Of a stretch of 64,000 bases of DNA, positions 1 through 37,792 are shown piece by piece. Made by a program: the position numbers and the translations under genes. Under the pieces are notes generated by a model. That model worked only from the letters and a program-made list of their open reading frames with translations. It was not told where the DNA came from and did not search any database. How positions within the stretch are numbered: the first letter of the stretch is position 1; each line of letters begins with the position of its first letter. This stretch comes from Cladochytrium replicatum (taxonomy: Eukaryota; Chytridiomycota; Chytridiomycetes; Cladochytriales; Cladochytriaceae), in contig JAHLKD010000037.1 in NCBI GenBank assembly GCA_025526935.1, positions 351,392-415,391 on the forward strand, in the 5' to 3' direction.

Positions 1-1518
1 TGGGGCATCTCCTCAACCTGTATTCAGAACCCGTTAGCCTATGGAAAGTACTTTCGAACAATATTTCTCACCTGGGTGTTGTAGAAAGTTTCAATTTCAC
101 GAAGCATGCGGACATCATCGACGGTAACGAAGTTAATGGCGACACCTTTCCTACCGAATCGTCCACCACGACCGATACTGGCAAAGCATGGATTATTTCA
201 CATTTGTGAAACATACAACTTGAGACCTACCGGTGGATGTAGTTTTCTTTGTTGGTGGGAAGGTCGTAGTTAATTACAAGAGAGACCTGCTGCACATCGA
301 TACCACGGGCGAGAAGATCGGTGGTGATGAGCACACGAGAAGAGCCCGAACGGAACTCCTTCATGATGACCTCACGGTCGGCTTGGGTCATGTCACCGTG
401 CTTTTCAAAAAAAGTTATAACGTATATCAAAATACCAAATCCTTATTCCCTACCATAGCAGAAACTGTGAATTCGCGGGCGTGCATCTTTTCGGTAAGCC
501 AGTCCACCTTCCTGCGAGTGTTGCAGAAAATGACAGCCTGGGTGATGGTGAGGGTTTCGTAAAGGTCGCAAAGGGTGTCAAGCTTCCAGTCCTCCTTGTC
601 GACAGACACGAAGAACTGCTTGATACCCTCGAGCGTCAACTCGTCGCGCTTGACGAGGATACGGATAGGGTCGCGCATGAAGCGCTTCGTCACTTCCAAA
701 ACTTCAGCGGGCATGGTGGCGGAAAGAAGAACAACTTGGGTCTGGGGAGGGAGGAGCTGGAAGACGTTGTAGATTTGCTCCGAGAAACCCCGGGAAAGCA
801 TTTCATCGGCCTCGTCCAACACAAACATCTGGATGCTGTCCGCCCTCAGAGCCCTGCGGTTGATCATATCGTACACACGACCAGGGGTACCGACCACAAT
901 CTGCGCACCCTGCTCCAACTTCCGCATGTCCTCGCGAACGTTGGTACCACCAATGCATGCGTGGCACTCAATGTTCATGTAGTCGCCGAGGGCAACCACG
1001 ACCTTTTGAATCTGCTGAGCCAGCTCACGCGTAGGAGCCAGGATGAGAGCCTGGGTCTCCTTCTTCGCAGGGTCGATCTTTTGGAGGATGGAAATAGAGA
1101 ATGTGGCAGTCTTCCCGGTTCCTGACTGTGCCTGGGCAATCACGTCGCGCTCCTTCAACACCGGTACGATAGCGCGCTGCTGAATGGTTGAAGGGCGCTC
1201 GAAACTAAGGTGGGACAGCACATCAAAAACCGCCGAAAAGGGTGGTGCATTCAAGCAAACCATACCCGTAGGCGTAGATACCACGCAGCAACTCCTCACG
1301 AAGACCCATGTCATCGAATCGGTCCACAACCTCATCCCAGTTGGACTGAAAATGACGAAAATGTGAGCCAGTCGAATGGAGTCATCATTCAACTAAAATA
1401 CCTCAATGTCCCCCTCTGCAATGTCATTGAATTGGTTTTCGTCGCTATAATCGCCACAATGCGCGCATATCAGCGATGCTCCGTTTCTCACTCTGCCGTG
1501 GTGCAGCACTCACCTCAT
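1..1518 (-). CDS. TIF1: eIF4A, DEAD-box translation initiation helicase (3' end off the window)
   Basis: ATP-dependent RNA helicase of the cap-binding complex that unwinds 5' leaders for ribosome scanning. Predicted exons on the minus strand: 1514-1518, 1402-1444, 1266-1345, 454-1204, 231-400, 72-177 and 1-17. All junctions are GT-AG and keep frame, giving 390 residues; the family is about 395-410, so only the last few residues lie outside. The start rests on a 5-nt first exon (ATGAG) joined to exon 2, which yields MSDENQF and an acidic N-terminus. Visible motifs in order: [10 protein letters not shown] (Walker A), PTRELA, DEAD (in VLDEADEML), [21 protein letters not shown] and [13 protein letters not shown]. 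These match the translation-factor eIF4A branch rather than the related FAL1/eIF4A-III, although the latter is close. The opposite-strand reading frames across it are shadows. Confidence 0.94.
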
Positions 1519-1665
1519 GATTGTTGAGATGAAAAAAGCCGCTCGCACAAAAAGAAAATAATGGCCATTAGTCCCGATTTGGTAGCCCCCATCCTGTGGC
1601 GCACTGAATCATAACTGCCCTAACTGCCATGCACTAAGCGTGGGACGTGACGCGCGACGTGTCCC

Positions 1666-3060
1666 ATGCGAATCAGCGCACACGATGCAACATCTCAGGA
1701 TGACCATTCGCCAACGACACCACGACCACGGTCAATGCTAGTGGCGGATGCTGAGGATGACGACAAATCCTGGGCGGATTACCAAATTTCGGACCACCCT
1801 TTGAGCCACCAATCCGACGAAGAGCATGAACTTGCGGCCCAGTTCGACTCGGACACCAGTTGGCACCCCAAGATCCAGTGTTACTCTGCTTAATATCTGT
1901 GCAGATGTGGATGGAAACAATTCTGTCACCCATCACCGATATTCATTGACATCGAACCACGCAAGAGTTTCGACAACGATTTCGATATCCCTGGTGACGA
2001 CTCTCTACTTGCAGTCGAAACTTCTGCAACATGCAGCACTCCTAGCATCAGTCTCTATGGGCGTATTCCAATCTCCCCCACTCCGACTGTCTCACTACCA
2101 TCCTTCCATCCATGAAGTTTATAGGGTCCAGCGCTCTAGTGAAGGTGAAACATTTGAGGACCTTCACCTTCCAGAAGGAGTGCATTTGGTCAACTTGTAC
2201 AACTGCAGGAAAGAGAAGAAATCAATCTCCTTCATCTTCGCTCCATCGATGACAACAGCATGGATCAAGATATCTTTGACGGTCTTGAGATCTCAGACAA
2301 TCAACTGATTAACCTAAAGCAACCATCACGACAGTCTAATGTTCCTCTCAAAATTCTTGACAAGTTGTAGACGTCACGTTCGCCACGAGCGACCTTTAAA
2401 CTGCCCACTTCCCGTCACCTTGAGCTAGATGACCACTCCAGAGCTGCATCTGTCGCAAAACAGGCAGTAGAACCCTTTCAGCAAGTACGCCAACTACCAG
2501 AAAAGCCCGGAGGACAGCTGAATCTCACATTGCTTCAACAGTGCCTGTTTCCTGGCGCAGCGCCATAGGCAGAGGGTGTGCCGACCTGAACTTGGTTGAT
2601 CATCATCAAAAATAATGAGATCAAACAGTTATGGTGATGAAACGGAGTTGGATGCCTTGGACAATTTTGTTTGCACCGTTTCTTGGGGAGCTTGCTGCGA
2701 GGCAACATGTGTCTGAAAGAACTAGCTGAGAAACAACCTGGCCACCCTTTTGACATTCAGTTCATCGATTCTTCCTGCTGACGGTGAGACCCATTGTGAC
2801 CGGATTCGCCATTGGAGTAAGCAATAAACTGCACGGGCATGGCCACCAATGCATCACAATGACGAAAGGAACCAAAAATCAAAATTTGATCATTGTCAAT
2901 TCCCGAAAGTCATTCTGCCGATTGAAAATCCCCAAAAAGAATTGCAGAGACCGTTTCTGCCAAGAAGCGTGCTCTATTCTCTGCTCATAAAGGCATATGG
3001 TGGAAGGAACTTTGCGTTTGCCTACCGACTGTCCTGAAAGCTAAAAGATAACAAGTGCAC
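1666..3060 (+). pseudogene. Decayed Byr4/Bfa1-like mitotic-exit/septation GAP-subunit gene
   Basis: No intact frame exists, but short acidic patches in different frames look like scattered motifs of the fungal Byr4/Bfa1 family, the scaffold half of the GAP that restrains septation or mitotic exit. Seen: DDDKSWADYQISD near 1760, SFDNDFDIPGDDSLL near 1960, GETFEDLHLPEG near 2145, DQDIFDGLEI near 2265 and YGDETELDALDNF near 2630. The last resembles a family signature of the GTELDxFDDL type. Stops and frame changes lie between every patch and no consistent intron pattern joins them, so I read this as a pseudogene. The family assignment is from memory of motif style and is tentative; a multi-exon gene with poor splice sites cannot be fully excluded. 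Confidence 0.4.
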
Positions 3061-3402
3061 AAAGAAAAGCAATTTGTATTTCCTAATGCTCACACTACAA
3101 TTGAAGAATCTCAAAGGGCAAACTTGAAATGCCATTAAGCAAATCAACGAAAGGAGAAAACAATTGCCGGAGATTGTTAAAAGCTAAAAATCAAAAGCTG
3201 GTTGGAGGTTGAACTCGCCCGTCCCACCACACTATTCGAAATAGAGAAAAGTCACCAAGGTCCCCTTCCACGTGCAAAATATACTGTGAAAGATTTAAAA
3301 GAAATCTGATCTCTGGTGTAGTAACTTCCACGTCACACTATCAGTGGTTAATATCGTCCCTGGAATACAATCAGCCTTCAATGAAAGCTGTCCTGTTGAT
3401 CC

Positions 3403-5561
3403 TTACCAAGTGCGTCCTTTTGTATCTGTGAGGTTGATCGGCGCGGACGTGTTCGAAAAGTACCCCGCCGCAATCTTTGCGTCGATCTCGACTTTTGAGT
3501 CCGGCGGCAGGTAGTGGTCCGGTATAGGCACGCGCTCCAAGATCGGAATCCCCGCTCCAATAATCGCATCGTATTTCTACAAAAACCACCACGCACAAGC
3601 ATTAGTTATAACAAAACCTCCCTCCCGCTCTACAAAAATCACTCTTTACCATATTACTCATGCTGATCATGCGGTCAATCTTTTCAATCCCAAACCAATG
3701 CAGCACGTCCGGCATGGTCGCCTGGAACCGCATGTCCTTGACGCCCGCAATGTCCTCCGTGCGAAGGAAATACGCTTCGGCCGTGTCGCCGCCCTCGGCG
3801 CGCTTGCGCGCGTTGTACACGAGATATTTGGTCACCTCGCCGAGTGCGCGACCCTCTTTGCGGAAGTACACGATGAGCCCGACGCCGCCTTGCTGCGCTT
3901 GGCGCACGCATTCTTCGATACCAAAGATCAGGTACGGCCTGCAAGTGCACTACAGGACAGACATGTGAGATCCAAATATTTTCATCAGACGCTTTTCTCC
4001 GTGTGGGAAACTCACAATGTCGGAACCAAACACGTCGGAACCGTTGCACTCGTCGTGAACCCTGAGCGTGAGCTTCTTTGTCGGGTCGGCGATGTACTCC
4101 GGGTTGCCAAAAATATAGAACGAGATCCCTCCTATAGGAGGCAGAAAGACTTTGAGGTCGGTGCGGGTGACGAGCTCGGGGTACATCCCGCCCGTGTCCT
4201 CGAAGAGGCAGCGGCGGAGGGTGGCTTCGTCCACTTGGAAGCGCTGGGCGACCCCTGGGAGGTACCATACGGGCTCGATGGCCCCCTTGTGAGAGGGAGG
4301 GTGTCAGGTGGGAAATCAAGGAAACGGTATTCATGACCGGGCAGCGGTCTTATAGTGAAGGAACGTTGCGAAGCGGCAAGTGTTGTCATGGCACTTATTG
4401 TCATGTCACTTAATATGCCGCAGAATTGCCATGTCAACATCGGCGTTTCGCACCGAGGAATGCTTACTTGGCATGTCATTTAATTGGCATGCCACAGAAT
4501 TGCCATGTCAGCATCGGCGCTTCGCGCCGAGGAACGCTTACTTGGCATGTCACTTAATTGGCATGCCGCAGAATTGCCATGTCAACATCGGCGCTGTCAT
4601 AATCAATGTTTTCCACCGAGCATACCTTAGTGACCATGAGTTCGCCCTCATTGTTGAGCACGACGGTGCCATCGACGTCGAGTTTCTTTCCCTTGACGGC
4701 GGCCTCGATCTCGGCGACTCTCATATGAGCCTTAGTGACGGAAATGGTGGGCCGAACATCAATGTCCTCCTTCAAGTACTTTGCAAAGACGTCCGCGACC
4801 ATGTGACCCCAAGGATCCATAGAAACGATTTTGGTGGGATCAAACCAAGACTTGTAAGGGCCAATTTTGATGACGGGTTCAGTGTTTGTGAGGTTGGGCC
4901 TGTGGGTCGGTTCCAAGTCGCGGATGGCGACGGCGAGAGCGCGATAGACCGAGTACGAGCCGCCGTGGGCACCGATGGCGTTCCTGACTTTGATCGAGTT
5001 TGGGATGCGCGACGCGATGATAGGCCCACGCGTCTGGGAGTCCGGAGCTCCCCATTGGAGCGGGACAGGTTTGATTCCAACTTGGTTTGGGTAGGTAGTG
5101 AGGATGATACGGTGGTTGTAGAGGGAGGGCGGAGCGGAAGCGGCGAGACGCGGGGAGGGCGGGGTTCCGCGGGTAGAAGGAGAGGTGCCGTAGATTGGGT
5201 TAGTGCGGCGGGAGGAGAACTCCGAGTCCGACTCTGACTCCTCGTGGCCGCCCTCCGGTAGGAATGGGTGGGTAGAGTGGGGATCTGTAGGGTTGACATT
5301 ATGACAAGGTCAACAGCAACAAGCAACATACCACCGGAATGGACCTTGTAGGCAGAAGAGGAAGATTTGGGGTCGACTTTAGCGGCGAGACGAGCGAGTT
5401 GGTCATTCGACTCTTTGCGGTACAGATCGAGCTTTGGAGAGGTGAGACACACCGCTCACCACAGATACAGTTGAAGAGCACGGTACCTTTTCAGCAATGG
5501 AGGTGTTCTGCTTTGCTAGAGCGGAGAGCAGTGCCACGATCTCGGTCGAGCGGTCGGCCAT
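3403..5561 (-). CDS. URC1: Urc1, GTP cyclohydrolase II-like uracil catabolism protein
   Basis: Member of the RibA/GTP cyclohydrolase II superfamily that is required in the fungal URC route for using uracil as nitrogen source. Predicted exons (minus): 5487-5561, 5332-5431, 4626-5284, 4016-4285, 3650-3949 and 3403-3576; frame is kept throughout, giving 525 residues. The start MADRSTEIVALL follows a stop-rich leader. The GCHII-like core is in the second half: RVHDECNGSDVFGSDI joined across an intron to CTCRPYLIFGIEEC supplies the three zinc-type cysteines, and YFRKEGRALGEVTKYL corresponds to the RibA GTP-binding stretch. The long N-terminal half and the alanine in EGRALG separate it from true riboflavin RibA. 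It faces a uracil phosphoribosyltransferase gene 192 bp away. The third intron (4286-4625) is much longer than the others and holds a minisatellite. Confidence 0.93.
4404..4599. repeat. Minisatellite (70-74 bp unit, about 2.7 copies) inside a URC1 intron
   Basis: Three successive copies begin TGTCAyTTAATwGGCATGCC-like at 4404, 4474 and 4548 and continue through GAATTGCCATGTCA, CATCGGCG and GAGGAAyGCTTACTTGGCA. The first copy lacks four bases. The GGCGCTTCGCGCC part can fold into a hairpin. The array fills most of the 340-bp intron and ends 27 bp from the 5' splice site. Confidence 0.9.
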
Positions 5562-5753
5562 GAGTCGCGAGTAGTAGAAGGAATGGGTGAGAGATTTTGA
5601 TCGTGTATTATTATCTATCGCTCGGCTTGGCTGGGCACAGAGCGTGTCACATGTGCACATCTCACGGTCACCTGATGATGGTTATCGCTGCTTTTGCTTC
5701 TGCACTGCCATTATTTGCTTTTGTTTCCGTTGTGCTGCCTTGCTGTTGCTGTG
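5562..5753. promoter_or_regulatory. Shared divergent promoter of URC1 and the uracil phosphoribosyltransferase
   Basis: Only 192 bp separate the two predicted start codons, which point away from each other, so both 5' leaders and promoters must overlap here. CT-rich tracts lie near both starts. I could not identify a specific transcription-factor site. Co-expression of the pair is an inference from layout and shared pathway. Confidence 0.55.
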
Positions 5754-6762
5754 ATGGCAACCGCTGCTCTGCCTCTGCCGTCCACGCTGACCGTCGTCGA
5801 CCACCCGCTCATCAGGCACAAGCTGTCGCTGCTGAGAGATGCCAGAGTAAAACCAAAACAATTCAGGGAACTCGTCACCGAAGTCGCGTCCCTCGTCGGC
5901 TATCCCGTCACCGCTCAACTCGACCTGATCGAAACTAAAATGGTGAGTACTATAATCCATTCTCTTCTTTGCTAATCTCTCCTCTCGCCCTTCAGCTGGA
6001 CACTCCCGTCGCTCCGTTCCAGGCTGTCAAACTCAAGGACGAGATTGCTCTCTTCCCAATCTTGCGTGCTGGTCTCGGCCTTGTCGATGGTATTGTATGA
6101 CCTGCCTGTACGGTGTCTGTGATTGATTGTCCATCTTTGCGCCCGTGACTCAGGTTTCTTGCACTTGTTGCCTTCCGCTCGTGTCTACCACCTCGGCTTG
6201 TACAGAGATAAGGTGAGGAATATATCAGTGCGACTTTGGCTTGGCGAGCTTTGCGCTCAATCAGCGAGATTGACTCGAGACACATTGTTGCTTATCGACC
6301 CATCGTTGCTTGTACTGGCTGTGTCGCTGGCAACAAATCAACAACTCACTGACTGACATGCTCATGGGCTACGGATTTCTTTTTGTAGACCACGCTGCTG
6401 CCCGTAGAGTACTACAACAAACTGCCCCCTCAGTGCGGCGTAGACCTCGGAATCGTTCTCGACCCCATGATCGCAACTGCTGGTAATCGCACCCTCCACT
6501 CTTCCTGTTATCATTGGCTTATCACACTTGCGCAGGAACCGCCATCGCTGCCGTCAACGTCCTCAAAGACTGGGGTCTCAAACGCATCAAGCTTGTCGGC
6601 GTCGTCGGTTCCCGCCACGGCGTGGAACAGTTCTATGCCGCCCACCCGGACGTCGAAATCTATCTCGGCGCCCTCGACGACGACCTCACCAACCACGGTT
6701 ATATCTCACCCGGTCTCGGTGACGCCGGCGACAGACTCTTCAAGACCTTCCACGAACACTGA
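5754..6762 (+). CDS. Uracil phosphoribosyltransferase (Upp/Urc6-like)
   Basis: Converts uracil and PRPP to UMP. Predicted exons: 5754-5942, 5996-6089, 6154-6212, 6389-6482 and 6536-6762; GT-AG introns keep frame and give 220 residues, close to the usual 210-220 of this family. Visible: VVDHPLIRHKLSLLRD at the N-terminus, FPILRAGLGLVDG (uracil-side loop), the PRPP loop as DPMIATAGTA around residues 140-149, and the C-terminal GYISPGLGDAGDR that contacts uracil. Most relatives have DPMLATGGS at the PRPP loop, so the second glycine is alanine here. The gene is divergent with URC1. In yeasts with the URC pathway a UPRT (Urc6) is one of its members, so it may serve catabolism, salvage, or both; sequence alone does not decide. 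No URC4 gene was seen nearby. Confidence 0.92.
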
Positions 6763-7809
6763 TTTAGAGACAATTGGAACTTTTTGCTTTATTATGTGTA
6801 ACGAATGCTTTGAATGGACGGACAGTGCACTCTACAAAATGGGTGGTTGGATCGATCAATTTAATGTGGGTATCTTGAATCAATCACAGTGCTCGGAACT
6901 TAGAATAAACCACTTGGTGGTTGGATCACGATTGAGTATCAGCACCAGTGGCAGTGTCAGCTTATTTCCAAATTAGTCTAATGTGACGCGTACCTTGTTC
7001 TTCGCTAAACACATGGCGACCATCGCCCTCATACTCTCCAACTCAAAACAGAACAACGTCCCTTCTCACAGATCATTATCAACCAAAGCATTTGAGAACC
7101 ACTCCGTTGCTGTTCAACATCCTCCTACCAACAAAATGCTTCCAGAACGACTTTGACAACGCCACACGTGACACTCTGCTATATTTGCAAGTGCAAACCC
7201 GACCAGGTCAGTTGCAGTGCAAACGAGCCAGCCAGCCCGGCTGGTGACGCGCATTGAAGTGCAAAACGAGCGGGCCAACCCAGCAGTTCCATTGACCTAG
7301 TCGCGAGGGTTCTGCAAACCCGTGCTGGTGACGCGCATGCAGTACAAAACGAGCCAGCCAACCCGCAGTTCCGTCGACCTAGCCCCAAGCGTTCTGCAAA
7401 CCGAGCTGGTGACGCGCATAGTGACGAGCTTGCCAACCCTGCTTGCACAAATCGTACTCCCAATGTGCCAGCTATCCGAGCAATTTGTATGTGCTGATCA
7501 TCCTGCAAGCTGGAGCTCCTCAGAAATGTTGAAATGTTGCTTGGCTAATTTTCGTTAATCAGAAACAGTCAGGAAGTCTTCAAGATTTAACACCACAAGT
7601 CGTATCGCCAAAATCCTGATGGTGGATCATGGTGTTTAAAAATGAATGTGTTTGTGGTGTTTGCTTGTGGGTCTGCGAGTACTTTTTATCTTCCAATTAT
7701 TCCAATCAGCAGGGCATTAATGATTCTTTGGCTTCTGGTGAAAACTAATTCTTCTTTTCTGACTTGATCTATCTCAGTCTTGTCCAGCAGTCCAAGCCAT
7801 TTGTAATCC
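6763..7809. other. Intergenic region between UPRT and the Clr2-like gene
   Basis: No supported gene. Apart from the imperfect tandem repeat at about 7240-7445, I see only short unconnected frames and A/T-rich leader sequence before 7810. Confidence 0.7.
7240..7445. repeat. Imperfect tandem repeat, 81-84 bp unit
   Basis: GCTGGTGACGCGCAT recurs at 7240, 7324 and 7405, each followed by diverged copies of AAACGAGC, CCAACCC, AGTTCC, GACCTAG and GTTCTGCAAAC. The last copy is partial. A weaker related stretch (ACCAGGTCAGTTGCAGTGCAAAC) precedes the first. Confidence 0.85.
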
Positions 7810-19363: not shown

Positions 19364-19371
19364 GCTGAAGA
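19364..19371. repeat. Left target-site duplication GCTGAAGA
   Basis: The eight bases directly left of the hAT element are repeated exactly at 25907-25914, directly right of it. Eight base pairs is the standard hAT duplication length. Confidence 0.9.
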
Positions 19372-19575
19372 TATGGATCGGCGGGTTTTAGGGTCTTTCG
19401 GGTCGGGTCCAGGTCCATTGACTAAATGTACCCGACCCGAGTGCCGGGTTTTCATGGAAAATTTTCGGGTCGGATCCGGGTCGGGTATCGGGTCCAGTAG
19501 GAAAACCCTTCTCGGGTCAAAAGTCAGACCCGAGTAAAACCCGATGTGATAGAGAATCTAAAACGAAGCTATTGT
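19372..19575 (+). repeat. GGGTC-rich left terminal region of the hAT element
   Basis: After the short TIR the sequence is dominated by GGGTC/GGGT(C/T)CGGG words and their complements GACCC, in both orientations, up to TAAAACCCGATG at about 19545. The same region, inverted, forms 26540-26731, and shorter versions occur at the right ends. Confidence 0.85.
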
Positions 19576-19673
19576 TCTTTCTGTCCACGCGGACACTTTC
19601 CAAGAAGACGCAATATAAGTTTTGTATGTATCAAACAATTTTGCATCACAACAGACATCGAGGCATGTATTTT

Positions 19674-20470
19674 CTGTCCACCCGGACACTTTCTCAACTC
19701 ATTGATGTACTTCAGTTATCTCTACCCAATACAACTAACCTCTCTATCAATGTTACTAGCAATAAGATTCTGTCCACCCGGACACTTTCTTAACTCATTG
19801 ACGGTACTTGAGTGATCTCTATCAAGTACAACTAACATCTCTATCAATGTTACTAGCAATAAGATTCTGTCCACCCGGACACTTTCGTAACTCATTGACG
19901 GTACTTGAGTGATCTCTATCAAGTACAACTAACATCTCTATCAATGTTACTAGCAATAAAATTCTGTCCACCCGGACACTTTCTCAACTCATTGACGGTA
20001 CTTCAGTGATCTCTATCAAGTACAGCTAACCTCTCTATCAATGTTACTAGCAATAAGATTCTGTCCACCCGGACACTTTCTTAACTCATTGACGGTACTT
20101 GAGTGATCTCTATCAAGTACAAATTAACATCTCTATCAATGTTACTAGCAATAAGATTCTGTCCACCCGGACACTTTCTTAACTCATTGACGGTACTTGA
20201 GTGATCTCTATCAAGTACAAACTAACATCTCTATCAATGTTACTAGCAATAAGATTCTGTCCACCCGGACACTTTCTCAACTCATTGACGTACTTCAGTT
20301 ATCTCTACCCAATACAGCTAACCTCTCTATCAATGTTACTAGCAATAGGATTCTGTCCACCTGGACACTTTCTCAACTCATTGACGTACTTCAGTTATCT
20401 CTACCCAGTACAACTAACCTCTATCAATGTTACTAGCAATAGGATTCTGTCCACCCGGACACTTTCCAAG
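19674..20470 (+). repeat. Subterminal satellite array, about 97-bp unit, 9 copies (plus orientation)
   Basis: CTGTCCACCCGGACACTTTC starts at 19674, 19770, 19867, 19964, 20061, 20159, 20257, 20353 and 20447. Between these, each unit reads ...CTCATTGACGGTACTT.AGTGATCTCTATCAAGTACA.CTAAC.TCTCTATCAATGTTACTAGCAATAAGATT with few changes. An outlying CTGTCCACGCGGACACTTTC lies at 19581. The heart, TGTCC-ACCC-GGACA, is an inverted repeat and so a candidate protein-binding site. Confidence 0.93.
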
Positions 20471-20586
20471 AAGTCACAACGGAAGTTCTGTAACAAACAA
20501 TTTCTACCACGACAGACCTCGAGAGCTGTGCTTTCTGTGCACCTGGACATTAGAGTCGGTAACGTTCCAGCCACACCACAGCAAAA

Positions 20587-23026
20587 ATGGACGCCGCCTT
20601 TGTTAAACCAAAGCGTAAGGCAGCGTCCAACGCAAGCCAAAGACTGGTGGACAGTCATCCGCTTGACACACGGAAGCGAAGTCTGCCAGCCCCCCAAATT
20701 TCAGAGGCGTCCAGCGAGGGGAACATCATGCAGGACAAACGCAGACGTGTATCAGGACACGGTGGCAACAACAGCGCTCGAGAGCCGAGCTCCACATCTT
20801 CTTCCAATGACTCCAGCGAGTTGGGCCCGGCTTCTCAGCATGCACCAGAGCTTCCTGCCGACGTTAGTTTTGCTGACTCTTCAGTGCGACAGGAGCCTGC
20901 AGCTGGATCAGTTCAACCATCAATGCTTTCATCAGACGCAGATGTTGATAGCATGTCGGACTGTAGAGGTAGTCGAGGCGGCATAGCGAAGGATTACTAT
21001 AAGGTTGATAATGGTCTGAGAACATGTTTGGTTGCAAAATGCAAGTGGAGCCAGAAGGTCGATAAGACGGGATCAACAAAAAACTTCCTCCGGCATCTGA
21101 AAAACCACCATGGAAGTATTGCCAGGTCGCTTGGACTGTTGGACATCGTCCCTAAGGGACGGACAACAGACATTGAATTTCGGCTCGCAGGAGAAGGAGC
21201 AAAACTTTGTGTTCAATCCAGACGTAGCGTGGCGATCGATTTTGGACTGGATTGCTGCAGACAATCAGGCTTTTACTGTTGTGGAGAACGAGTTCTTTGT
21301 CAGCATGCTGAAGACTTTTCAGCCAAACTATACACCAAAGACAGCAAAAGCAGTGAAGCAAAAGGAGATGGATCTTTACGATAGGCAGAAGGTGCTCATT
21401 AAAGGTCTGATTGTTGGTTCACCTTCAAAAGTATCAATAACAGCTGACTGTTGGACATCGAAGAACCATATTTCTTTTCTTGGAATTACTGCCCACTTCA
21501 TCACGAAAGATTGGGAGCCGCAGGACTTGCTGCTGCAGATGATTCCGATGGTTGGAAAGCATGAAGGCGTCGCCATGGCTAGTCAGCTTGTCAAGTGTCT
21601 GGATGAATTTGGCATGCTATCGGGTGAACGCTTATTGTGCATTACAACCGACAACGGTTCAAACAACTTTACCATGAGTGCTAAGCTGGAGACGCTCTTG
21701 GAAGATAGGGATATTGTGTGGTCTGCAGAAACTCAACACATGCGGTGTATGGCACACATTATCAATCTTGCAGCAAAGGATTTTATCGATACATTCGCGC
21801 CCGCAGGGGACACAGTCGCAAATGACGATAACTCCGGCGTTAATGTCATAAACCTTCTTCGACAGCTAGTCAGAGGAATCCGGTCTTCCCCAAAACGACG
21901 AAGCTCATTTATTGATTCGTGCCGATTTGTGAAACTGGTTCCTCTATTACCAATTATCGATGTGACAACTCGCTGGAATAGCACGTTCTATATGGTCAAA
22001 CGAGCCTTACAGCTACGAGAGGCAATGGACAAAATATGCTGGATTGAAGATTCTTTGAAAGATTGGTCAATAAATCCAAAGCAATGGGAGGTCCTACAGA
22101 AGATCTGGGATGGTTTGAGTGTTTTCGAGGTTATATCAAAGGCAATCGAGGGGTCTAGATATCCAACACTTCCGCTTGTTATTCCATTTTACAACGATCT
22201 TATCGATCAACTGGAGGACCTAGAGGATGCAGAATTAGATGAAACTTTCACCAAAGCATTTCGAAATGCACTAGATAAGCTGAGAATATATTACTCAATC
22301 GCTAAGAGCCCGTGTTTAGCAGTTGCTACGGTACTCGATCCTCGTTTTAAGGATCAATATTATCGATTTTCAAAGGCTTGGGAGAAAGATGTAGGAAGGG
22401 ATCAGGTCACCCTAGTGCGGAAAGTCTGGGAGGAATCGTATAAGTCACGGAAAATCAAGAACAGTGGTGCCGATGTTTTTGGAAACACGCCAGAACGTCG
22501 ACACGATTCGAGCGGAGCTTCCGGTGATAGACAGAAAAAAACGGACGCTGAACGCTTGAGAGCCATTAGATCCGTTTTCATCTGGCAAGAAGAGATTCCT
22601 GAGGAAAAAGATGAGCTGGATCGCTATCTTGGCGATCAGGTACTCCGCGGTATTGATTCTGATGGGAAGCCAATCAATATTATGGACTGGTGGAAGACCG
22701 TTGGAAGTGTGAACTTTCCAGCCCTAAGCCAGATGGCAATGGACTATTTAGGAATACCAGCAACAAGCGCTCCAGTCGAACGAAAGTTTTCAGCCGGGGT
22801 TGATTTGGTACCTGCAACTCGCAACCGCCTTGCTCCAAGAACAATAAATGCGTTGATGTGCCGTCATGACTGGTTGCATCAATTGAGTGCTGAAGAACCG
22901 TTCAAAAATGATTCCCTAGATTCCAAAAGTGATGTTAGTGAGGATTTTGTAAAGGTGCATAATTTTGGCGAGGATTTTGATGTGGTATTAGAGTTGGAAG
23001 CAACTGATGATAACCCACTCTTTTAA
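20587..23026 (+). CDS. hAT-family transposase with BED-type zinc finger
   Basis: DDE-type transposase that cuts and pastes the element. The N-terminal part has a serine-rich region and a BED-like finger (CLVAKCKW ... FLRHLKNHH). The main part has ITADCWTS and CITTDNGSNN (two catalytic aspartates), MRCMAHIINLAAKD, TTRWNSTFYM, and the C-terminal dimer region with LGIPATSAPVERKFS, where the family's glutamate and dimerisation residues lie. The reading frame changes once between about 21110 and 21190. A 43-bp intron (21148-21190) would give 798 residues. A single-base frameshift is the alternative, and is favoured by the family-like QQTLNFG just upstream of 21190 in the second frame. Otherwise the gene is uninterrupted. 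Confidence 0.85.
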
Positions 23027-23057
23027 GTATAAATTGTTGTTTAGACTGTTCATCTGT

Positions 23058-23510
23058 TGAAGTACCGTCCAGGAGTTGAGAAAGCGACCGCCTGGACAGA
23101 ATCCTATTACAAGTAGTATTTGTAGAGAGGTTGGTTGTACTTGATCGAGATCAGTGAAGTATCAGTGAAGTACCGTCAATGAGTTGAGAAAGTGTCTGGG
23201 TGGACAGAATCTTATTGCTAGTAACATTATTAGAGAGGTTAGCTGTACTTGATAGAGATCACTGAAGTACCGTCAATGAGTTGAGAAAGTGTCCGGGTGG
23301 ACAGAATCCTATTGCTAGTAACATTGATAGAGAGGTTAGTTGTATTGGGTAGAGATCACTGAAGTACCGTCAATGAGTTGAGAAAGTGTCCGGGTGGACA
23401 GAATCCTATTGCTAGTAGTATTTGTAGAGAGGTTAGCTGTACCTGATAGAGATTACTGAAGTACCGTCAATGAGTTGAGAAAGTGTCCGGGTGGACAGAA
23501 ATCTGGGAGA
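23058..23510 (-). repeat. Satellite array after the transposase, minus orientation
   Basis: About five units of the same 97-bp family in inverse orientation (GAAAGTGTCCGGGTGGACAGAATC and variants), the first one more diverged. Together with the left array it brackets the transposase gene in inverted orientation. Confidence 0.9.
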
Positions 23511-23534
23511 CTGAGTGTCACTGTGTCTGTCTGG

Positions 23535-23790
23535 GTAGAATAGGATTCTGTCCCCCCGGACACTTTCTCAACTCATTGACGGTACTTGAGTAATTTCTAT
23601 CAGGTACAGCTAACCTCTCTATTAATGTTACTAGCAATAAGATTCTGTCCACCCGGACACTTTCTCAACTTATTGACGGTACTTCAGTGATCTCTATCAA
23701 GTGCAGCTAACCTCTCTATCAATTTTACTAGCAATAAGATTCTGTCCACCCGGACAGAATCCTCTCTATCAATGTTACTAGCCAGTTTCT
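23535..23790 (+). repeat. Satellite units between the spacer and ORF2, plus orientation
   Basis: Three units start near 23545, 23647 and 23742; the last is cut short. A spacer of roughly 50 bp (CTGGGAGACTGAGTGTCACT and following) separates it from the minus-oriented array. Confidence 0.88.
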
Positions 23791-23923
23791 TCCCTAGCTT
23801 ATTATTATTTTCAGATCGGGTAGAAAACTATAGTGTCAGGGAAGTATTATAGCATACATTCCTGTAACATTCCGGCTAAGAACACCGGGCCAGTATCTTC
23901 CCACGACAAACAGTACAAACACC

Positions 23924-25606
23924 ATGCCTCGAACTACAAAGAAGCGAGCGTTAAAACAATCCAGACCATCATCTGAAAGAGAATCAAGTGCAGAACCTGT
24001 GACTGCACCTGAAACATCTCTGGCATCGGGTTCTGAAGTGGAAGAAGCAGAAGTTGGCCTTGATGTCAAATCGACAGATGTCAAATCGACAGCTCCTTCA
24101 AAGAAACCGGCGCGACGTGGTACTAAAGGGGATGCTGACTATTTGCTCATCGACGGACTCTGTCCTGCTTCAGACATACGACTTTGGTATCGAAAATTCA
24201 AAGCGAGCGGCCACAGCTACGACTCAGAGGACTTCATCAGCAACTGTCAAACAAATCGTGATGAATGCGGCCCAAGATTTGTTCTTCAAGGGTTGATCGA
24301 CCGACTTAACTCTGACAGCAAGCTAGTTCGTCAGCCCTGAACGAAATTCACGATGAATGCAGTGGACAAACGGAGTTCATAACAGCAGCAAACGCCTATC
24401 GTATGGAGTGCTTGAAAAGCTCTTCCTTTCAGAAGGAAACAACATTTCTGGACTTTTACAGGCGGCAGGGACACAAGTACGGCATTTACAGAGGAATGCC
24501 TGTCACTGCAAAGGTTGACGAGTTCCAAGCGACCATCAAACGAGCAGATGAGGACTGTGAAAGGACAAAACAGGTCCTCAAACAGTCAGAACGACTGTTG
24601 AACATGACAAAAGATCTTGAAGAGACTGCAATGAACGAGAGAAGGACCCGCATCGCAGCAGAAGTGCGAGAGAAGGCTCTCATTGATGAATTGGGCCAGG
24701 GCGGGTGCATTGATTCAGCATGGCGAGCACGAAGAGCTAGCAAGATTCAGGGAGATCACCGCTGCAATGGAAAGGGAGAAGCAGGCAACTTCCCAGGAGA
24801 TTTCACAATGGAAATCACGTGTGACTGCCCTGGAGGGAGAGCTTGCTGCTCTGAAACGACAGGCTGGTCATTCAGAAGCTGCAGCACCTGCGGCGCCAAC
24901 ATCAACAGGCGGCCTAATAAGCATATCGTCGGCTATCAAGGGGATTGGTAGAATTCCGAAGGTACATCGAACCAGTTCTCCAACGAGTTCCCTTGCATTG
25001 CTTAGCCTGCAGCAGCATCGTCGTACGGCTATCCTTTTGGTGAAAGAGGTCATCCAGGGTATCTGCTTCCAGATGCATAAGATCAATGAGGTTATTTATG
25101 ACCTTAAATTGCCGTCTCTTCCACCATCAATCAAGTACGTCAATGTAAACTACGAAGTCCTCTCCTGAAATGAGTTTTTACGGCCCATATTTGTTGAATC
25201 AGACGACCGCTCAAGCCGAATATCAACTTCAAGTAGCAGTGCTCGGAGCAGCCTTACTCTTCTTAGGGTGCACATTTTGCTCGGAAACTGGATACGGCAC
25301 AATAATTCGCTAAGTACGTCTGCCACTATCTATCACATGTTCAGGGCATTAGTGGATGCATATCCTTCTGAGTGGCTAAGGTTCTGGACGGCATACATCG
25401 GGCATCTTTCGTCCATAACGCTCCCTGAGGTGGATTGGAAACCTTGGAAGACAGGTTTAGCCAAGGATTTCATGCTTTCAAATGACGACATTGATCGGTT
25501 CATCAGGACTGGGTTGGCGAAGGACGTAACCAGTGGTGGATGGGACTCTGACGATATGAACCAGATACAGAAGCTGATTTGGGCTGTTCCACCTATCAAC
25601 TTGTGA
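23924..25606 (+). pseudogene. ORF2: unknown hAT-borne gene, frameshifted copy
   Basis: I do not recognise the family. The first block (MPRTTKKRALKQSRPSS...) is basic and then serine/acid-rich. After it comes a conserved block around ADYLLIDGLCPASDIRLWY and SYDSEDFISNCQ, then FYRRQGHKYGIYRGM, then a long charged stretch with heptad character (KRADEDCERTKQVLKQSERL ... AMEREKQATSQEISQWKSRV), likely coiled coil. The C-terminal part has AYPSEWLRFWTAYIGHL and WDSDDMNQIQKLIWAVPP. Compared with the second copy at 47357-49001, this copy has a one-base deletion near 24334 and a one-base insertion near 24698, plus a further disruption near 25168 or 25300. About 560 residues would be expected if the frame were unbroken. 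The basic start and coiled coil would fit a DNA-binding accessory factor, but that is inference. Confidence 0.72.
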
Positions 25607-25734
25607 TTGCTCAGTGGAGTTTTGTTTCTTTTTACGATAGTGTTTCTAAAATACACACTGTCCACACAGACACAAAGTGTTCATGTAAATATCCGTGGTC
25701 TAACTCAAAATTCAATCAATCCTCTCCTGGGCAG

Positions 25735-25906
25735 CAAAAACCCGGCGGGTCAGGGTCGGGTACGGGTTTCAACCACTTCGGGTCCGGGTATTCCCTTTGT
25801 ACCCGTCAGTGACCCGGCGGGTCCCCAGACAAACACGACCTGACCCAAAGGGTTTGGTGTGGGTCGCCACTGAAACCCGGACCCGACCTGGACCCGCCGA
25901 ACCTTA
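25735..25906 (+). repeat. GGGTC-rich right terminal region of the hAT element
   Basis: Dense GACCC/GGGTC words end in GACCCGCCGAACCTTA, whose inverse TAAGGTTCGGCGGGTC matches the left TIR at most positions. The matching end of the second copy is at 47057-47225, inverted. Confidence 0.88.
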
Positions 25907-25914
25907 GCTGAAGA
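25907..25914. repeat. Right target-site duplication GCTGAAGA
   Basis: Exact copy of 19364-19371, marking the right end of the hAT element. Confidence 0.9.
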
Positions 25915-26332: not shown

Positions 26333-26731
26333 GGTCTCTCTGCATCCTGCATAGAGAACACCCGGAGGTCTCCAGTCCATCTGTTCATTACAAATCCTAT
26401 ATTGCACCTTCTTGGAATGTCCTGGTGGACAGAAAACACATGTCTCAATTTCTGTTGTGAAACAAATTGTTTGGTACAAAAACTTATATTGCGTCTTCTT
26501 GGAAAGTGTCCACGTGGACAGAAGGAACAATAGCTTCGTTTTAGCTTTCTTATCACATCGGGTTTTACTCGGGTCTGAATCTTGACCTGATAAGGGTTTT
26601 GCTACTGGACCTGATTCCTCGCCCAGATCCGACCTGAACAAATTTTCTTGAAAACCCAGCTATCGGATTGGGTACATTTGGTCAACGGACCCAGACCCAA
26701 CTGGAAAGACCCAAAAACCCGCCGATCCTTA
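26333..26731 (-). mobile_element. Truncated hAT left end, inverted
   Basis: On the minus strand this repeats 19372-19690 with diverged GGGTC words, CTGTCCACGTGGACACTTTC and AAGAAGACGCAATATAAGTT. The outer end is TAAGGATCGGCGGG at 26731. Its inner side is cut off by the solo LTR. No transposase sequence remains. Confidence 0.85.
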
Positions 26732-28257
26732 ATCTCTGTCCCCCTAACCCCTTCACCGAGACAGGACCGTGGGCCCTCACTACGTCGATCACGGCTAAAT
26801 GAAAGGCGAAGGTGGTTCACAAGCACCTGCACATGCTGAATGGCACATACAATTGTTGCATCACACGTGTGACTAGCGGGCCACATCTCCTCTTTGCTTG
26901 CGTTCCTGTGGTCTCTCAGATCCAACGGCACCAGATGATCCTCTGGTAGCTAGATGTTCACAGGCACTGCAACACGGTGCCCGCTCTGCGACTACGACAA
27001 CCCCAAACATCGCACGACCTGTGCACACCTTGTTGATTGTTCTGATCCAATGGTATTACTGTGGGGGTGGCCTCTGAAGTTGCAGCATCAGACCTGGCCC
27101 CTTTCAATGCGATTGATGCAGCTCTTGACCTGCTACCACTGATGCCTCTGATCCCTCCTCTGCCGGTCTTTCCTTCTCCTGGCAATCTGGCTGCTTGGTG
27201 TTCCAACTGCAATGCCATCAATGCAACCACTCACCATCTCTGGACTGCCACTGCCAAACTCCTTGACCTGATCTCTATCCACCACCTGGGCTACATCGAC
27301 GCTGAATTGTGGTGATCTTCTTTTGGTTGGTTCTTTGTACAAATTGGCACTTGGTTCACTGCTGGGAACCTATCGTGGCCTGCTTTCGGCTCTTTGTTTG
27401 CCGCCTTGGGTCTGCTGCCTTAACAGCTCGATTTAATGACCTTTAGGTTCTTTGGTTTGTTTTCCTGAGCACATGGACGTTTGGGACTGTTTTCTTGTTG
27501 GTTCCTGGACACACTGGTGTTTTGATTGATTTCAGCATGCTGGACTCATCAATATGACGCTGGTAATAGCCTCTGTGCAGCGCTGGGGTAAATAAAGATC
27601 TTTCTTAAATTCTAAATGGATATAGCGTTGCACAAGTTTAGACACTCAAAAATACCCGGAAGGCAACCAGTATGGCATTTGGGACAAGTTCCATTTAACT
27701 CTGATTTCTCTTCTGTTGTTTCTGGTGTTAATGTTTGTATACTAGGGGATCCATCTATTCCTCCTAATGTTTGTTGTGCCAAGGATATCTGGCGGACAAT
27801 AAAGGGACGTGTGGGTGTTGTGGCAGCAGATGCAGAAGACTCCATGGCAGAGTATGAGGTATCCAATCAGGAAGACACCTAGAGCATCAACATTTGTCAG
27901 GATAGTGCACCTGCTTTTCCTTCTTCCCCTGACCATGTTTTATTGGGCCACAGTTCTGCTTGACTGTTTGAAGAAGATGACGCATTATTGGATGGTGAGT
28001 ACTGATGTGGAAAAAATGAGCACAATATATTGATATTCATCGCGGCCATAGGGCCAGACCAACACTTAATTGAGAATTATTGGTTTCATAGGCCATCCGG
28101 TCCATCCCCCCTTCCCTGGCCCAAAGCGACGATGAAGCAGAGAGCCAGCCAATCCAGAATGGGCTGAGTACAGGCAATATCCAGAAGGGAAAACAGCAGT
28201 TGCGTCACAAGCAAAGGCTTCAACTGGGAAGGCTGTGTGAAGTTTCGTGACTATAAT
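26732..28257. other. Repeat-derived DNA, possibly the 3' end of a LINE-type element
   Basis: No intact gene. Around 26960-27050 the plus strand encodes CPLCDYDNPKHRTTCAHLVD followed by C, which resembles the C-terminal Cys/His motif of fungal non-LTR retrotransposons; GPHLLFACVPVV lies just upstream in another frame. A long non-coding stretch follows and ends with TAAATAAAGATC near 27590, like a 3' UTR. From 27600 to 28257 I see only short frames of no known kind. Confidence 0.3.
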
Positions 28258-28700
28258 TAAGGCTCAGCAGGTCCGGGTCAGGTCTGGGTTAGAGAATCAA
28301 CCAGAAAAAGAACCCGAATGTCGGGTCGTGTATGTCCAGGGACCTGCCGGGTCCCTATGTAGCAGCGCCAAACCCGGACCCACAGTTATCGAAACCCGTA
28401 CCAGACCCTGACTCTGTCCATTTTGGTGTTTAGCTTGAACTAGAAGAAGGTAAAACAAAATCTTGATTTTGTCTTCTTGGAAAGTGTCTGCGTGGACAGA
28501 AAGTGCAGCTCTCGAGGTCTGTTGTGGATAGAAAAAGTTTGTTACAAAACCTCGATTGTCATCTTGGAAAGTGTCCGTGTGGACAGAAATACAAATGGCT
28601 TCCTTCTATCTTTTCTTATGAGATCGGGTTTTAATAAGGGTCTAAAGCTCGACCTGATAAGAGTTTTGCTTCTGGACCCGATAAGGGTTGCTTCCGGACC
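28258..28700 (-). mobile_element. Deletion derivative (MITE-like) of the hAT family
   Basis: Begins TAAGGCTCAGCAGG, a diverged right end like 47057, then GGGTC words to about 28420. It continues directly with left-end sequence (inverted CTGTCCAC.CGGACAC motifs at about 28495 and 28585 and TTTTATTACC-like tail words). Both ends are thus joined with no coding sequence between them. The outer left TIR is not recognisable near 28700, so it is old or truncated. Confidence 0.65.
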
Positions 28701-32543: not shown

Positions 32544-34639
32544 TCACACTGTACGAATGAGAACCCACACTTTCCACCACGCTGGCGTCCTTGCCCTTTC
32601 GATGTACCCACCGCTCTCCACTGCACGAATCTCGCCCGCAATCTTCCAGTATATATCACTCGCAGCGATCACTCCACGAGAATAACAACCAGGGAGTCCT
32701 TCCAAGGCTCCACGACGGCTCGAGTAGACCAACGGTTCGGCAAGCTGAAGAAGGCGTTCTGCCAAGGCACGGACTTGATCACGAGGGTAAGTGTCGGGAT
32801 TCCCAACGAGATCCGAAGGTGGAAATTCGGCTTTAAACCAGGAGCTCGGAACGTAGACTCTTCCAATACGTGCGTCGGTGACAATGTCGCGTGCGCAGTT
32901 GACAAACTGGAAAGCGACACCCATGTCTCTGCAGGAAATTAATTAGAAAATAGTTGCGGGACGAGGAGGGAAACGTACCTTGCATGTTTGACCAGATCAT
33001 TCAACGGGCATCGACATGCCGCTCCGTTCTTCGGATGGTAACGAGCATTATCTCCACCAGCTTTGTTACCGCAAACGTACCCTCCGAATTCCGGATTGGC
33101 TGTACAGAAATGATGGTGCATCAACAACACCATCCCTTCGCCCACGCTTGCTGCCACTTGCTCAGCGTACTTCACAACATCATCGTCCGTCAAAATTTTA
33201 TCGAGGGCGGGCTTCTCATATCCACTTCCTTTTGCACCTTGCTCTCCCAAATCGAAGTAATAACCCCTAAAAAGCTCCGCTACAGGTCCGAAACCAACAA
33301 TTCGTGGTCCATTCGAGTAAGCCCAGAGACGAAGGATTGCCGCGGCGTTGCAGTTCGCAGCCGTTACCAGATCAAGCGCCGACTCGAATTGAGCATCCGT
33401 ATCGCGGTTCACGTCCTCAACACTGGATGGCCGGACGCAGCGTATTACGTAAGGAAGTTTCTCAGACTCTGTTTCTTTCGAGCACGCATCGATATCTTCC
33501 AGAAGCGTTCGAACAGCGTGGAGGAGCGTGCTGCGGCGCTCACGAGGGACTTCCTCCTCATCGACAATATCGTCAGTGATTCGACAGATGCCGTAAAATG
33601 CAATAACGTCCATCCATATCTCCTCCGGATAAATCTGCAGGGCGGCGGAGAACGACAGCGACCCTTTCGACATAGCTTGGACTGCTGCCCACAGATCAGA
33701 GAGAATCTGAGAATCAAGATCACGAGGTTCCACTACAAACCAAGTCGCCTTCATAGTTTCGAGCGTCGACGGGGTGAATTTCAGTCTTCGCCAGTCCTTA
33801 AGTCGCGTAGTTCTGTCACCAACCAAGTCATGCCGGCACTCTTTGAAGGATTGAAGGTTCAGAACGCTGCCAACGGCGACCGCACGATCAAAGGCGAGGT
33901 ACCCAAAGACCACGAGACAATTCGTCGCCAGGAAGAAGAGTGCTTCTTCTATGGGGAGATGATCGGACAACGCGAATCCAGTGGTGTAGCGAGGAGAGAT
34001 GATCCAGATTCCCTGCTGGATTGCAAGGTGATCGGCGACCCAGAAGTACACGGTCGGGACCGCGACGGCGAGGAACGCCCGATACGGACGCACGGCAATG
34101 AAGGGACCAGCGAACCACCATTGCCAGGCAAGCACAGGAGACACCCACCACACTATCATTCCGAGATAGAAAGTGGAATCCGCCGAAACTGCAAGATAGG
34201 CACCGATGGGCAAACCACAAGCCAAAATGATCGTTGGAACCCAGCGCAATAAAAAGTATGATCTCTCTCGATGCGCAGCAAGATAGCACTCTTTAGGATT
34301 TCCCCATCGGAAGATCAGAAGGGACAGAAGAGCGACTGAGGTGGTTTGGATGACAAAGAAGAAGTACTCTTCGATGGGGACGTAACCGATTACGCCAATA
34401 ACGTTGTGAGGCTCATAGGACCAAGCGCCAGCAGCGACGATGAAGTTGTCCCACAGAGTAGTGTACAGAACAGCGGCGACCGAGAGGAAGACGATTTTCG
34501 CTCTGTGCACGCTGGATAGGAACCTTCTGCAGACGAGCAAGAGGAAGAAGAAGATGGGCACAGTGAACACGAGATGAAATCGAGCGTACGAGCCCTCCTT
34601 GGGGATCAGCCCCGACAGCGACAGCGAGGGGACCAGCAT
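32544..34639 (-). CDS. carRP: Bifunctional lycopene cyclase/phytoene synthase
   Basis: Makes phytoene from two geranylgeranyl diphosphates and cyclises lycopene to beta-carotene; membrane-bound. Exons (minus) 32979-34639 and 32544-32928, 681 residues, joined as KHAR|DMGVAFQFVN. The N-terminal cyclase part (to about residue 240) has several membrane segments and the motifs TTLWDNFIV, GYVPIEEYFFFVIQT and LPIEEALFF. The C-terminal synthase part has DDIVDEE at about residue 355 and DIVTDARIGRVYVP at about 568, the two aspartate-rich substrate sites. This cyclase-then-synthase fusion is specific to fungi. The start at 34639 is chosen over an upstream in-frame ATG because known relatives begin close to the first membrane helix. 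It is convergent with the PKA-like gene, 202 bp apart; no other carotenoid gene is in the window. Confidence 0.94.
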
Positions 34640-35176
34640 TGGGAAACAAAGCTCGCGTAACTCTAGCGGGGGATCAGCGCTGGTTATAAGTGTGGGGCGG
34701 GTGGTCTGTGCGTGGGAGCATTGGGTTGCATGTGAATGTGGGGCAGCCACACAACGGTGGTGCTGCGTCAATATTCTAATATTCTGCTGATGCAAGATAA
34801 AACTATCAATACTATCGTGTTGTTAAGTATTCCGATTGAGGTTCGCATTTGGGTCAACACGTTTATTATATTATGGAAGGACATTCGCCCTCCTATGTAT
34901 CGGACATGTGATTTACGTCTATATTTTGCAATTCCTCGAACGGACCTCGTTATGATTAAATGAGAGAGGCATAAGTTTACAAAGACTCTGCGAAAGAATT
35001 GTTTCCTTGTCCTTCGGCTTTAGGAATAAAAAGAGTGATGGACGTTTTTCACTTCTGAACTTCGATGCCATTCTTTGTTCGGTTGTTCTTGAGCGGGGCA
35101 TTATGACATTGGCCCTCATTAGATGGTACACGTGATTTACGCCTATATTTCATACCCCCTCGAATATGTAGAATAG
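34640..35176. promoter_or_regulatory. carRP upstream region and repeat-flank
   Basis: The 5' region of carRP must lie here. A roughly 50-bp segment with GTGATTTACGyCTATATTTy occurs twice, at about 34907 and 35131, followed each time by CCTCGAA. This suggests a decayed duplicated repeat rather than a promoter element. I could not identify light-response or other factor sites. Confidence 0.4.
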
Positions 35177-36599: not shown

Positions 36600-36891
36600 G
36601 GGCACTTTAATCTTTTTACGCAAAAAGTTTTCGTCAGGACTCAAATATTTGGCGAATAGCAAATAATTGACAAATCAAATAGGCAAATGTCTCTTTTTCA
36701 TATAGATTTGGGCAAATCAAATATTTGTAAAGCATTTGACAAGTGGTCCTACAGAATGTTATATCAAATATTTGGCGAGTCAAATGGGGCGTCTGGCATT
36801 TGACTGGCGAGTCAAATCAAAGGAGGGCACAAATGGTCACAAGTCAAATATAGCAAAATATTTGACTTGATTTGACTAGTGGCAGACCCTG
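36600..36891. repeat. TCAAAT-rich transposon end
   Basis: The words TCAAAT, CAAATATTTG and their complements recur at least fifteen times in both orientations. The right boundary reads GGCAGACCCTG, whose inverse CAGGGTCTGCCAC is a typical-looking hAT inverted-repeat start. The partner end was not found. Confidence 0.5.
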
Positions 36892-37571
36892 TTTGTATCA
36901 AACAAATTCCATCACAACAGACATCGAGACATGAATTTCTGTCCGCCTGGACACTTTCCAAGAAGACGCAATATAGACGAAATGTAAGATTTGTAATGAG
37001 CAATTTGTATCACAACAAACTTAGAGAGCTGTATTTTCTGTCCACCCGGACGCGTTCCAAGAAGTCACAATGGAAATTCTGTAACAAACAATTTCCACTA
37101 CAACAGACCTTGAGAGCTGTGCTTTCTGTCCCACCAGGAAACTTCAAGTCTGTAACGTTCCAGCCACACCACAACAAAAATGGACGCCGCCTTTGTTAAA
37201 CCAAAGCGTAAGGCAGCGTCCAACGCAAGCCAATGACTGGTGGAGAGTCATCTGCTTGACACACGGAACCGAAGTCTGCCAGCCCCCTGAGTTACAGAGG
37301 CATCTAACAAGGGAAACAGCATGCAGGACAAAAGCAGACGTATATCAGAACACGGTGGCAACAACAGCACTCGAGAACCTGGCTCCACATCTTCTTCCAA
37401 TTACTCCTGCCAGTTGGGCCAGGCTTCTCAGCGTGCACCAGAGCTTCCTGCTGATGTTAGTTTTGCTGACTCTTCAGCGCAACAGGAGCCAGCAGCTGGA
37501 TTGGTTCAACTATCAATGCTTTCATCGGACGCAGATGTTGATAGCATGTCAGACTATAGAGGTGGTTGAGG
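36892..37571 (+). pseudogene. Truncated hAT copy: leader and start of the transposase gene
   Basis: Matches 19628-19700 and 20447-20960 of the intact element: two diverged CTGTCC-motif units, the leader GTAACGTTCCAGCCACACCA, and the start MDAAFVKPKRKAASNASQ at 37181. An in-frame stop follows directly and small indels shift the frame. It ends after the GACTATAGAGGTGGTTGAGG region, before the BED finger. The satellite array is missing. Non-functional. Confidence 0.85.
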
Positions 37572-37792
37572 CGGCATTTGAATTACAGCCTTCTCTCACC
37601 AAATCAACAAAATGTCCATTGCATTACTGGTGCAACTGCTCAACTCTGAAACTCATGGTTGAGTTCATGGCGGGCGAAAGGTTTGCACAATTGCCCTTGC
37701 GCGTAAACCAAAGAATGCCAAAGCGACTGCACGCTTTCCTTTGCTGAAAAGGCTTTCGAAGGAGAGGTGTGAAGAACTTCTTCAACCTCTGT

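Follow-up and report, generated by a model that had tools for sequence, protein, structure and literature searches.

Few DNA transposons are as widespread as those of the hAT superfamily, which are generally regarded as having a single gene; Hermes, Ac and Tol2, for example, are single-gene hATs with subterminal repeats. The En/Spm system of the CACTA group relies on two proteins, TnpA and TnpD, with repeated short binding motifs in subterminal position, and CACTA elements are characterized by CACTA ends and a target-site duplication (TSD) of 3 bp. VANDAL elements belong to the Mutator-like superfamily. Here we describe a hAT element of the chytrid Cladochytrium replicatum, located at positions 19372-25906 of a 64,000-nucleotide stretch of DNA (the window, whose coordinates are used below; contig JAHLKD010000037.1 of assembly GCA_025526935.1, positions 351,392 to 415,391, forward strand), which carries a second gene, open reading frame 2 (ORF2), downstream of its transposase gene, and arrays of the palindrome TGTCC-N4-GGACA.

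Two described systems serve as the main points of comparison. VANC proteins remove methylation, and the short motifs to which they bind are repeated in tandem across non-coding portions of the elements that encode them (PMC5735166). Shanks, a transposon of the haptophyte Tisochrysis lutea that Repbase assigns to the hATv group, has two ORFs of about 793 and 580 aa (PMC10138859). By examining copies of the Cladochytrium element across the assembly (50.5 Mb in 198 contigs), we find that it belongs to a two-gene hAT transposon that is present in many copies and has been active recently, and we tentatively propose that ORF2 may be an element-encoded regulator that acts through the TGTCC-N4-GGACA arrays, VANC-like in its mode of action and outside VANC's own family.

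The unit in the window is 6535 bp long, has hAT-type ends, and is bordered by a perfect 8-bp TSD, GCTGAAGA, at 19364-19371 and again at 25907-25914. Comparison of the ends places the left terminal inverted repeat (TIR), TATGGATCGGCGGGT, at 19372-19386 on the forward strand, matching the right TIR (25892-25906) at 13 of 15 positions; in an intact copy 14 of the 15 match, with nearly no match past position 15. Other left ends compared start with TAAGG, except for one (L028) that starts with AAAGG. All parts of the element lie on the forward strand unless stated. The left subterminal region (19372-19578), rich in CGGGT/ACCCG and found in at least 40 copies among the matches listed, is followed by a 5' array of the palindrome in 97-bp units upstream of the transposase (19581-20549, core array 19672-20466), the transposase gene (20587-23026), an inverted intergenic array after the transposase stop (23053-23500, reverse strand), a forward intergenic array upstream of ORF2 (23539-23756), ORF2 itself (23924-25606), and a right subterminal region that is again rich in CGGGT/ACCCG and ends in the right TIR (25735-25906). 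Just inside the right subterminal region lies a single imperfect palindrome with one arm mismatch (25658-25672), as it does in copies L039 and L040. The window copy is dead, with both genes broken: its transposase is spread over two overlapping frames that split near 21.1-21.4 kb, and its ORF2 is disrupted by two frame changes, one near 24.33 kb and one near 24.70 kb, and by a stop near 25.17 kb, ORF2 lesions absent from the other 26 rows of our alignment. The initial annotation, made from the sequence alone, had described this locus as one TIR/TSD-bounded hAT unit with a second gene inside it and arrays of a palindromic motif, and all of these elements were borne out.

In the transposase, PF05699, the hAT dimerization domain, is matched at 72.7 bits against a cut-off of 21.4 (E about 2e-20), and Hermes chains in the PDB are matched with an E of about 2e-12. 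The hAT RNase-H model PF14372 scores 23.6 bits, below its cut-off of 27; the first D, RW and E regions line up with those of Hermes, the last block alone significantly, and the aligned acidic residues would be the catalytic ones. A Pfam scan of the transposase returned hAT-type models and a sub-threshold zf-BED, and no Mutator-type transposase. The element resembles Hermes, Ac and Tol2 in its Dimer_Tnp_hAT transposase, its 8-bp TSD and its subterminal repeats, and differs from them in its second gene and its internal palindrome arrays.

Elsewhere in the assembly, both genes are found as single open frames, of 811 aa for the transposase (16 of 22 copies checked) and 560 aa for ORF2 (15 of 26 distinct near-full loci, the alignment having 27 rows of which one is a duplicate locus). 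We count at least 69 transposase copies (69 of 1148 first-look candidates scored) and, combining the ORF2 searches, near-full ORF2 copies at 87 or more distinct loci, while the terminal 15-mer has 458 exact matches assembly-wide and its reversed control none. Copies were read with their flanks for the best 20 of the 68 transposase matches outside the window, a sample biased to young copies with intact transposase and in which low-identity copies are hardly represented. Each of the 21 sampled transposase copies (these 20 plus that of the window) has ORF2 sequence between its transposase and its right end, complete in 18, split by an insertion in one and lacking its 5' part in two, and no transposase-only unit occurs among them; a degraded copy picked by its ends and so outside the 21 (L039) also has both genes. 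Both genes are intact (811 and 560 aa) in 8 of the 19 copies for which both ends were read. Because it is present in every sampled transposase copy and intact together with the transposase in these eight, ORF2 is a standard part of the element.

Judged from coordinates alone, a listed transposase ends 0.3-6 kb upstream on the same strand for 57 of the 87 listed ORF2 copies, against 2 of 87 in the downstream control; some of the 30 that lack one are true ORF2-only units, and in others the transposase may be decayed or absent from the list. In the opposite direction, a listed ORF2 lies downstream of 34 of the 69 listed transposases; six of the other 35 were read (L021, L023, L028, L032, L033 and L034), and all six have ORF2 sequence, missing from the lists because it is broken or partial.

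Two-gene copies with both ends and 8-bp duplications, for which the initial annotation had suggested a search, do exist: of 19 two-gene units, eight are flanked by a perfect TSD (L039 and 7 from a set of 18), and two more (L029 and L030) have reciprocally exchanged TSDs, while no perfect TSD was present in the flanks of the nine remaining units. TIRs, 8-bp TSD, CGGGT-rich subterminal regions, transposase, ORF2 and palindrome arrays form one unit at many loci, several with a perfect TSD. L029 (C101, element 507-7230) and L030 (C101, 2768-9587) are inverted copies about 10 kb apart whose exchanged duplications are GCCAGTAC and GCCGTATC, a pattern that looks like an inversion through recombination between two copies; at one of them, the two parts of an interrupted older ORF2 copy overlap by 8 bp. 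At six loci (L020, L022, L029, L030, L032 and L038) young elements sit in or against older copies of the same family, represented by ORF2 pieces 88-97% identical and, at L038, by transposase pieces, so the family often inserts into itself. At L022, part of a second, opposite transposase copy is present with an ORF2 piece on its far side, and the younger element seems to have inserted into the older transposase copy.

Units with ORF2 and without transposase bear on the idea, put forward by the initial annotation as the case against its own reading, that ORF2 started as an independent element and inserted into a hAT with one gene; we consider this extremely improbable, and it is not borne out by the copies read. 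Such units with TIRs and perfect 8-bp TSDs do exist (L010, L041 and L043; three of four ORF2-only units), as that idea would have it: L041 and L043 are 2560 and 2838 bp long and their ORF2 frames are open (559 and 555 aa), that of L010 is broken, and L040 has neither a perfect TSD nor an open frame. However, all use the two-gene element's own left and right ends, with the left part joined to ORF2 inside the 97-bp repeats, the kind of junction that deletion between direct repeats would leave; no end sequence was found on the transposase side of ORF2 in the sampled two-gene copies, and none of the 21 sampled transposase copies is a transposase-only unit. A nested ORF2 element was rejected on the grounds of these shared ends. 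The ORF2-only units look like internal deletion derivatives, and from the shared ends and the junction within the repeats we infer that the transposase was lost by recombination between the two same-direction arrays. A still shorter unit of 534 bp also has a perfect TSD, and retains both ends (75-77% identical) and two palindromes.

The element contains two sets of repeated motifs that occupy separate parts of it. CGGGT/ACCCG is concentrated at the outer ends, with 14 and 15 sites in the outer 250 bp of the intact copy L027 against 0.5-0.7 in shuffled sequences, and TGTCC-N4-GGACA is internal. The latter has 32 matches in the whole window, allowing up to 2 mismatches, where 0.09 would be expected, and lies in tandem units of 97 bp; a 20-mer around it occurs 2389 times in the assembly (reversed control 0). 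An Rfam scan gave no match at the gathering score. In all 16 copies in which both gene starts were found, exact palindromes are confined to the front of the transposase and the space between the genes, with 7-10 sites upstream of the transposase (in two-gene copies with the start found) and 6-37 intergenic sites in 16 copies; the decayed L039 has 4 of the latter. Element length largely follows whole units: among the 15 copies longer than 6.6 kb, the other 14 all exceed the shortest by 1 to 27 whole 97-bp units, to within 0.06 unit, a series that omits the four copies below 6.6 kb, namely the window copy at -1.95 units and the deletion copies L034, L023 and L039, which are off the ladder at -8.38, -11.31 and -13.61 units. 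L038 reaches 9342 bp through expansion of its intergenic array to 37 exact palindromes.

Within the 97-bp unit, the palindrome is the most conserved stretch of 14 columns: its mismatch is 0.053, compared with about 0.156 in the adjacent 14 columns and an average of 0.233 for the other columns (102 distinct units, located by a 25-base anchor 3' of the palindrome). With a 5' anchor (95 units) the palindrome again ranks first, at 0.105 compared with 0.167 in the adjacent 14 columns. As mismatch grows away from the anchor in both cases and the units are related by duplication, these values measure conservation and are not a formal test of selection. The palindrome arms are also seen in diverged relatives, whose units were selected by their arms, and in the 534-bp derivative.

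The arrays are central to the main rival of a regulatory role, in which ORF2 would be a transposition cofactor similar to TnpA of En/Spm that binds the palindromes and helps to pair the ends or load the transposase, the arrays being transposition machinery. We regard this as possible and on the unlikely side. It is consistent with the retention of at least two palindromes in all five shorter TIR-bounded derivatives read (L010, L040, L041, L042 and L043), the 534-bp one included, and with the presence of a palindrome at the inner edge of each subterminal region, the right-hand one being imperfect. En/Spm likewise combines two proteins with repeated short motifs; the present element, however, has TAAGG ends, an 8-bp TSD and repeated palindromes that are mostly internal, by the genes, and whose intergenic number varies from 6 to 37 in otherwise similar copies, while the repeated motif near its ends is CGGGT rather than the palindrome.

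The ORF2 protein itself gives few clues. Profile searches in Pfam, NCBIfam and PDB, which the initial annotation had proposed as a way to place it, revealed no relative, only coiled-coil-type or far-sub-threshold matches, and viral relatives of the transposase or ORF2 were not confirmed in a viral contig collection. A coiled coil, the sole known feature of ORF2, appears through generic sub-threshold matches and a low-confidence predicted helix, and so held up to that extent, whereas the basic start described with it proved only weakly basic (14 K/R against 12 D/E in residues 1-75); the calculated pI is 9.1, and it is the C-terminal part that is basic. Within ORF2 of the window copy, a 15-bp in-frame tandem repeat at 24062-24092 encodes DVKST twice, and ORF2 open frames of 585, 590 and 595 codons may carry one, two or three copies of this repeat. 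ORF2 might also be functional by a route other than the arrays, for example as a transposase inhibitor, in nuclear transport or as a silencing decoy, with the palindromes read by the transposase or a host factor. In keeping with this, no DNA-binding domain was recognized in ORF2, and the transposase has a possible zinc-finger-like stretch (zf-BED, 7.8 bits against a cut-off of 20.6); on the other hand, an array adjoins ORF2 and ORF2 accompanies every sampled transposase, which suggests a link and does not prove it. On balance we consider an array-independent ORF2 unlikely.

Sequence variation among copies bears on whether ORF2 is needed at all. Changes private to single ORF2 copies (32 rows) comprise 89 nonsynonymous, 33 synonymous and 9 stop changes, fitting a neutral expectation of 88.4, 35.3 and 7.3, and shared changes lean synonymous (18, 15 and 1; Fisher P 0.036 against the private changes), though they may include recurrent CpG mutations. 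A passenger ORF2, captured from the host or from a foreign source by the ancestor of the burst and then amplified although dispensable, would agree with this weak evidence of selection, with the youth of the copies, in which an idle gene could remain intact, with the lack of relatives in the libraries searched (Pfam, NCBIfam, PDB and viral contigs), and with an intact transposase in a larger share of copies (16 of 22) than have both genes intact (8 of 19), in a sample that was ranked by transposase score. We nevertheless judge it improbable, given that ORF2 is present in all 21 sampled transposase copies (low-identity ones being hardly sampled) and in the degraded L039, has an intergenic array of its own, and is open at 15 of 26 distinct loci.

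Private C-to-T and G-to-A changes in ORF2 are strongly concentrated at CpG, with 44 at 166 CpG positions and 21 elsewhere (odds ratio 10.8), and the genome contains five DNA-methylase stretches over the Pfam cut-off; PF00145 stretches include C140:40675-41019, within an open frame of 1414 codons, and C25:340831-342025. Together, these observations make methylation-driven decay of the element likely.

We return to the proposal that ORF2 is a regulator, which we favor because the arrays lie beside both genes, the dyad motif is conserved and the copies show methylation-like decay. The recurrent unit with both genes intact in several copies, the series of lengths in whole 97-bp units and the synonymous lean of shared ORF2 changes also count in its favor. 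Under this proposal, the transposase would cut and paste the element by recognizing the TIRs and the CGGGT-rich subterminal repeats, and ORF2 would be a trans-acting DNA-binding or bridging protein, dimerizing through its coiled coil, with its sites of action in the TGTCC-N4-GGACA arrays that precede both genes and follow the transposase; it would sustain transcription of the element in the face of host CpG methylation, or regulate the two genes in some other way. The transposase here is of hAT rather than Mutator type, a difference from the VANDAL elements. VANC of Arabidopsis VANDAL21 offers the parallel of an element protein other than the transposase, a short motif in non-coding tandem repeats and changes in array copy number; binding, demethylation and the motif YAGTATTAY were demonstrated there, as was a methylating host (PMC5735166), and their counterparts here are postulated. 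Several observations weigh against the regulator proposal. No DNA-binding domain was recognized in ORF2 in Pfam, NCBIfam or PDB, and structure models of ORF2, built from the two window pieces without relatives, are too poor to help (mean pLDDT 43.5 and 52.5). The palindrome is only 1.6- to 3-fold better conserved than its neighbors, since columns farther from the anchor also have more mismatch, and the reader of the palindrome could be the transposase or a host factor. The selection signal on ORF2 is weak, and 21 transposase rows give no difference between shared and private changes (P 0.73). Finally, decay at CpG indicates methylation-like mutation, not that ORF2 counters methylation.

The initial annotation had held that hAT elements normally carry one gene, to which Shanks is a published exception with its two ORFs; it was the only hAT element with more than one gene or an accessory protein noticed among the matches listed in searches of the open literature. 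The likeness extends, in architecture only, to ORF lengths (about 793 and 580 aa against 811 and 560 aa here), and Shanks further shares a length near 6.8 kb, TIRs that are short and not identical, numerous non-autonomous copies and recent activity (PMC10138859). However, Shanks has a 7-bp TSD and 26-bp TIRs, where the present element has an 8-bp TSD and 15-bp TIRs; neither of its ORFs has a Pfam or HHpred match, whereas the first ORF here has PF05699; and the section on Shanks mentions no motif arrays (PMC10138859). As Shanks has a 7-bp TSD and no recognized domain, membership in hATv cannot be claimed. A two-ORF, hAT-like architecture has thus already been described, and the present element is a new variant rather than a new category.

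The window holds further traces of the family. A second, older, left-truncated copy at 47057-49587 (reverse strand, about 95% identical) has the right end, an ORF2 with a broken frame and some of the intergenic repeats; related elements have left diverged end fragments, about 70-85% identical, at 26418-28683 (reverse strand), in which the palindrome persists with 1-2 mismatches to its 15-mer; and an old fragment at 36890-37577 (forward strand, about 90% identical) comprises palindromes together with the beginning (5' part) of the transposase gene. Two highly similar retrotransposons, presumably Copia-type, stand in the same orientation at 50311-55517 and 57481-62691, the latter containing one uninterrupted 1736-aa frame with RVT_2. 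At 32939-34822 (reverse strand) lies a fused lycopene cyclase / phytoene synthase gene (PF18916 and PF00494), a fusion typical of fungi.

A bolder form of the regulator proposal is that a hAT element has independently evolved a sequence-specific anti-silencing system, in which an orphan coiled-coil protein would read the palindrome, amplified in 97-bp units next to both genes, and maintain expression of the family in a fungus that methylates its DNA; unit number would set the strength of the response, and ORF2-only derivatives, arisen through recombination between arrays, would go on providing the activity in trans; we consider this conceivable and rather unlikely. The family itself, young and abundant, with several intact two-gene copies, ORF2-only and 534-bp derivatives, and graded array lengths, constitutes a natural experiment, and could reveal whether an accessory protein and arrays of its binding sites aid hAT elements in escaping silencing or in moving.

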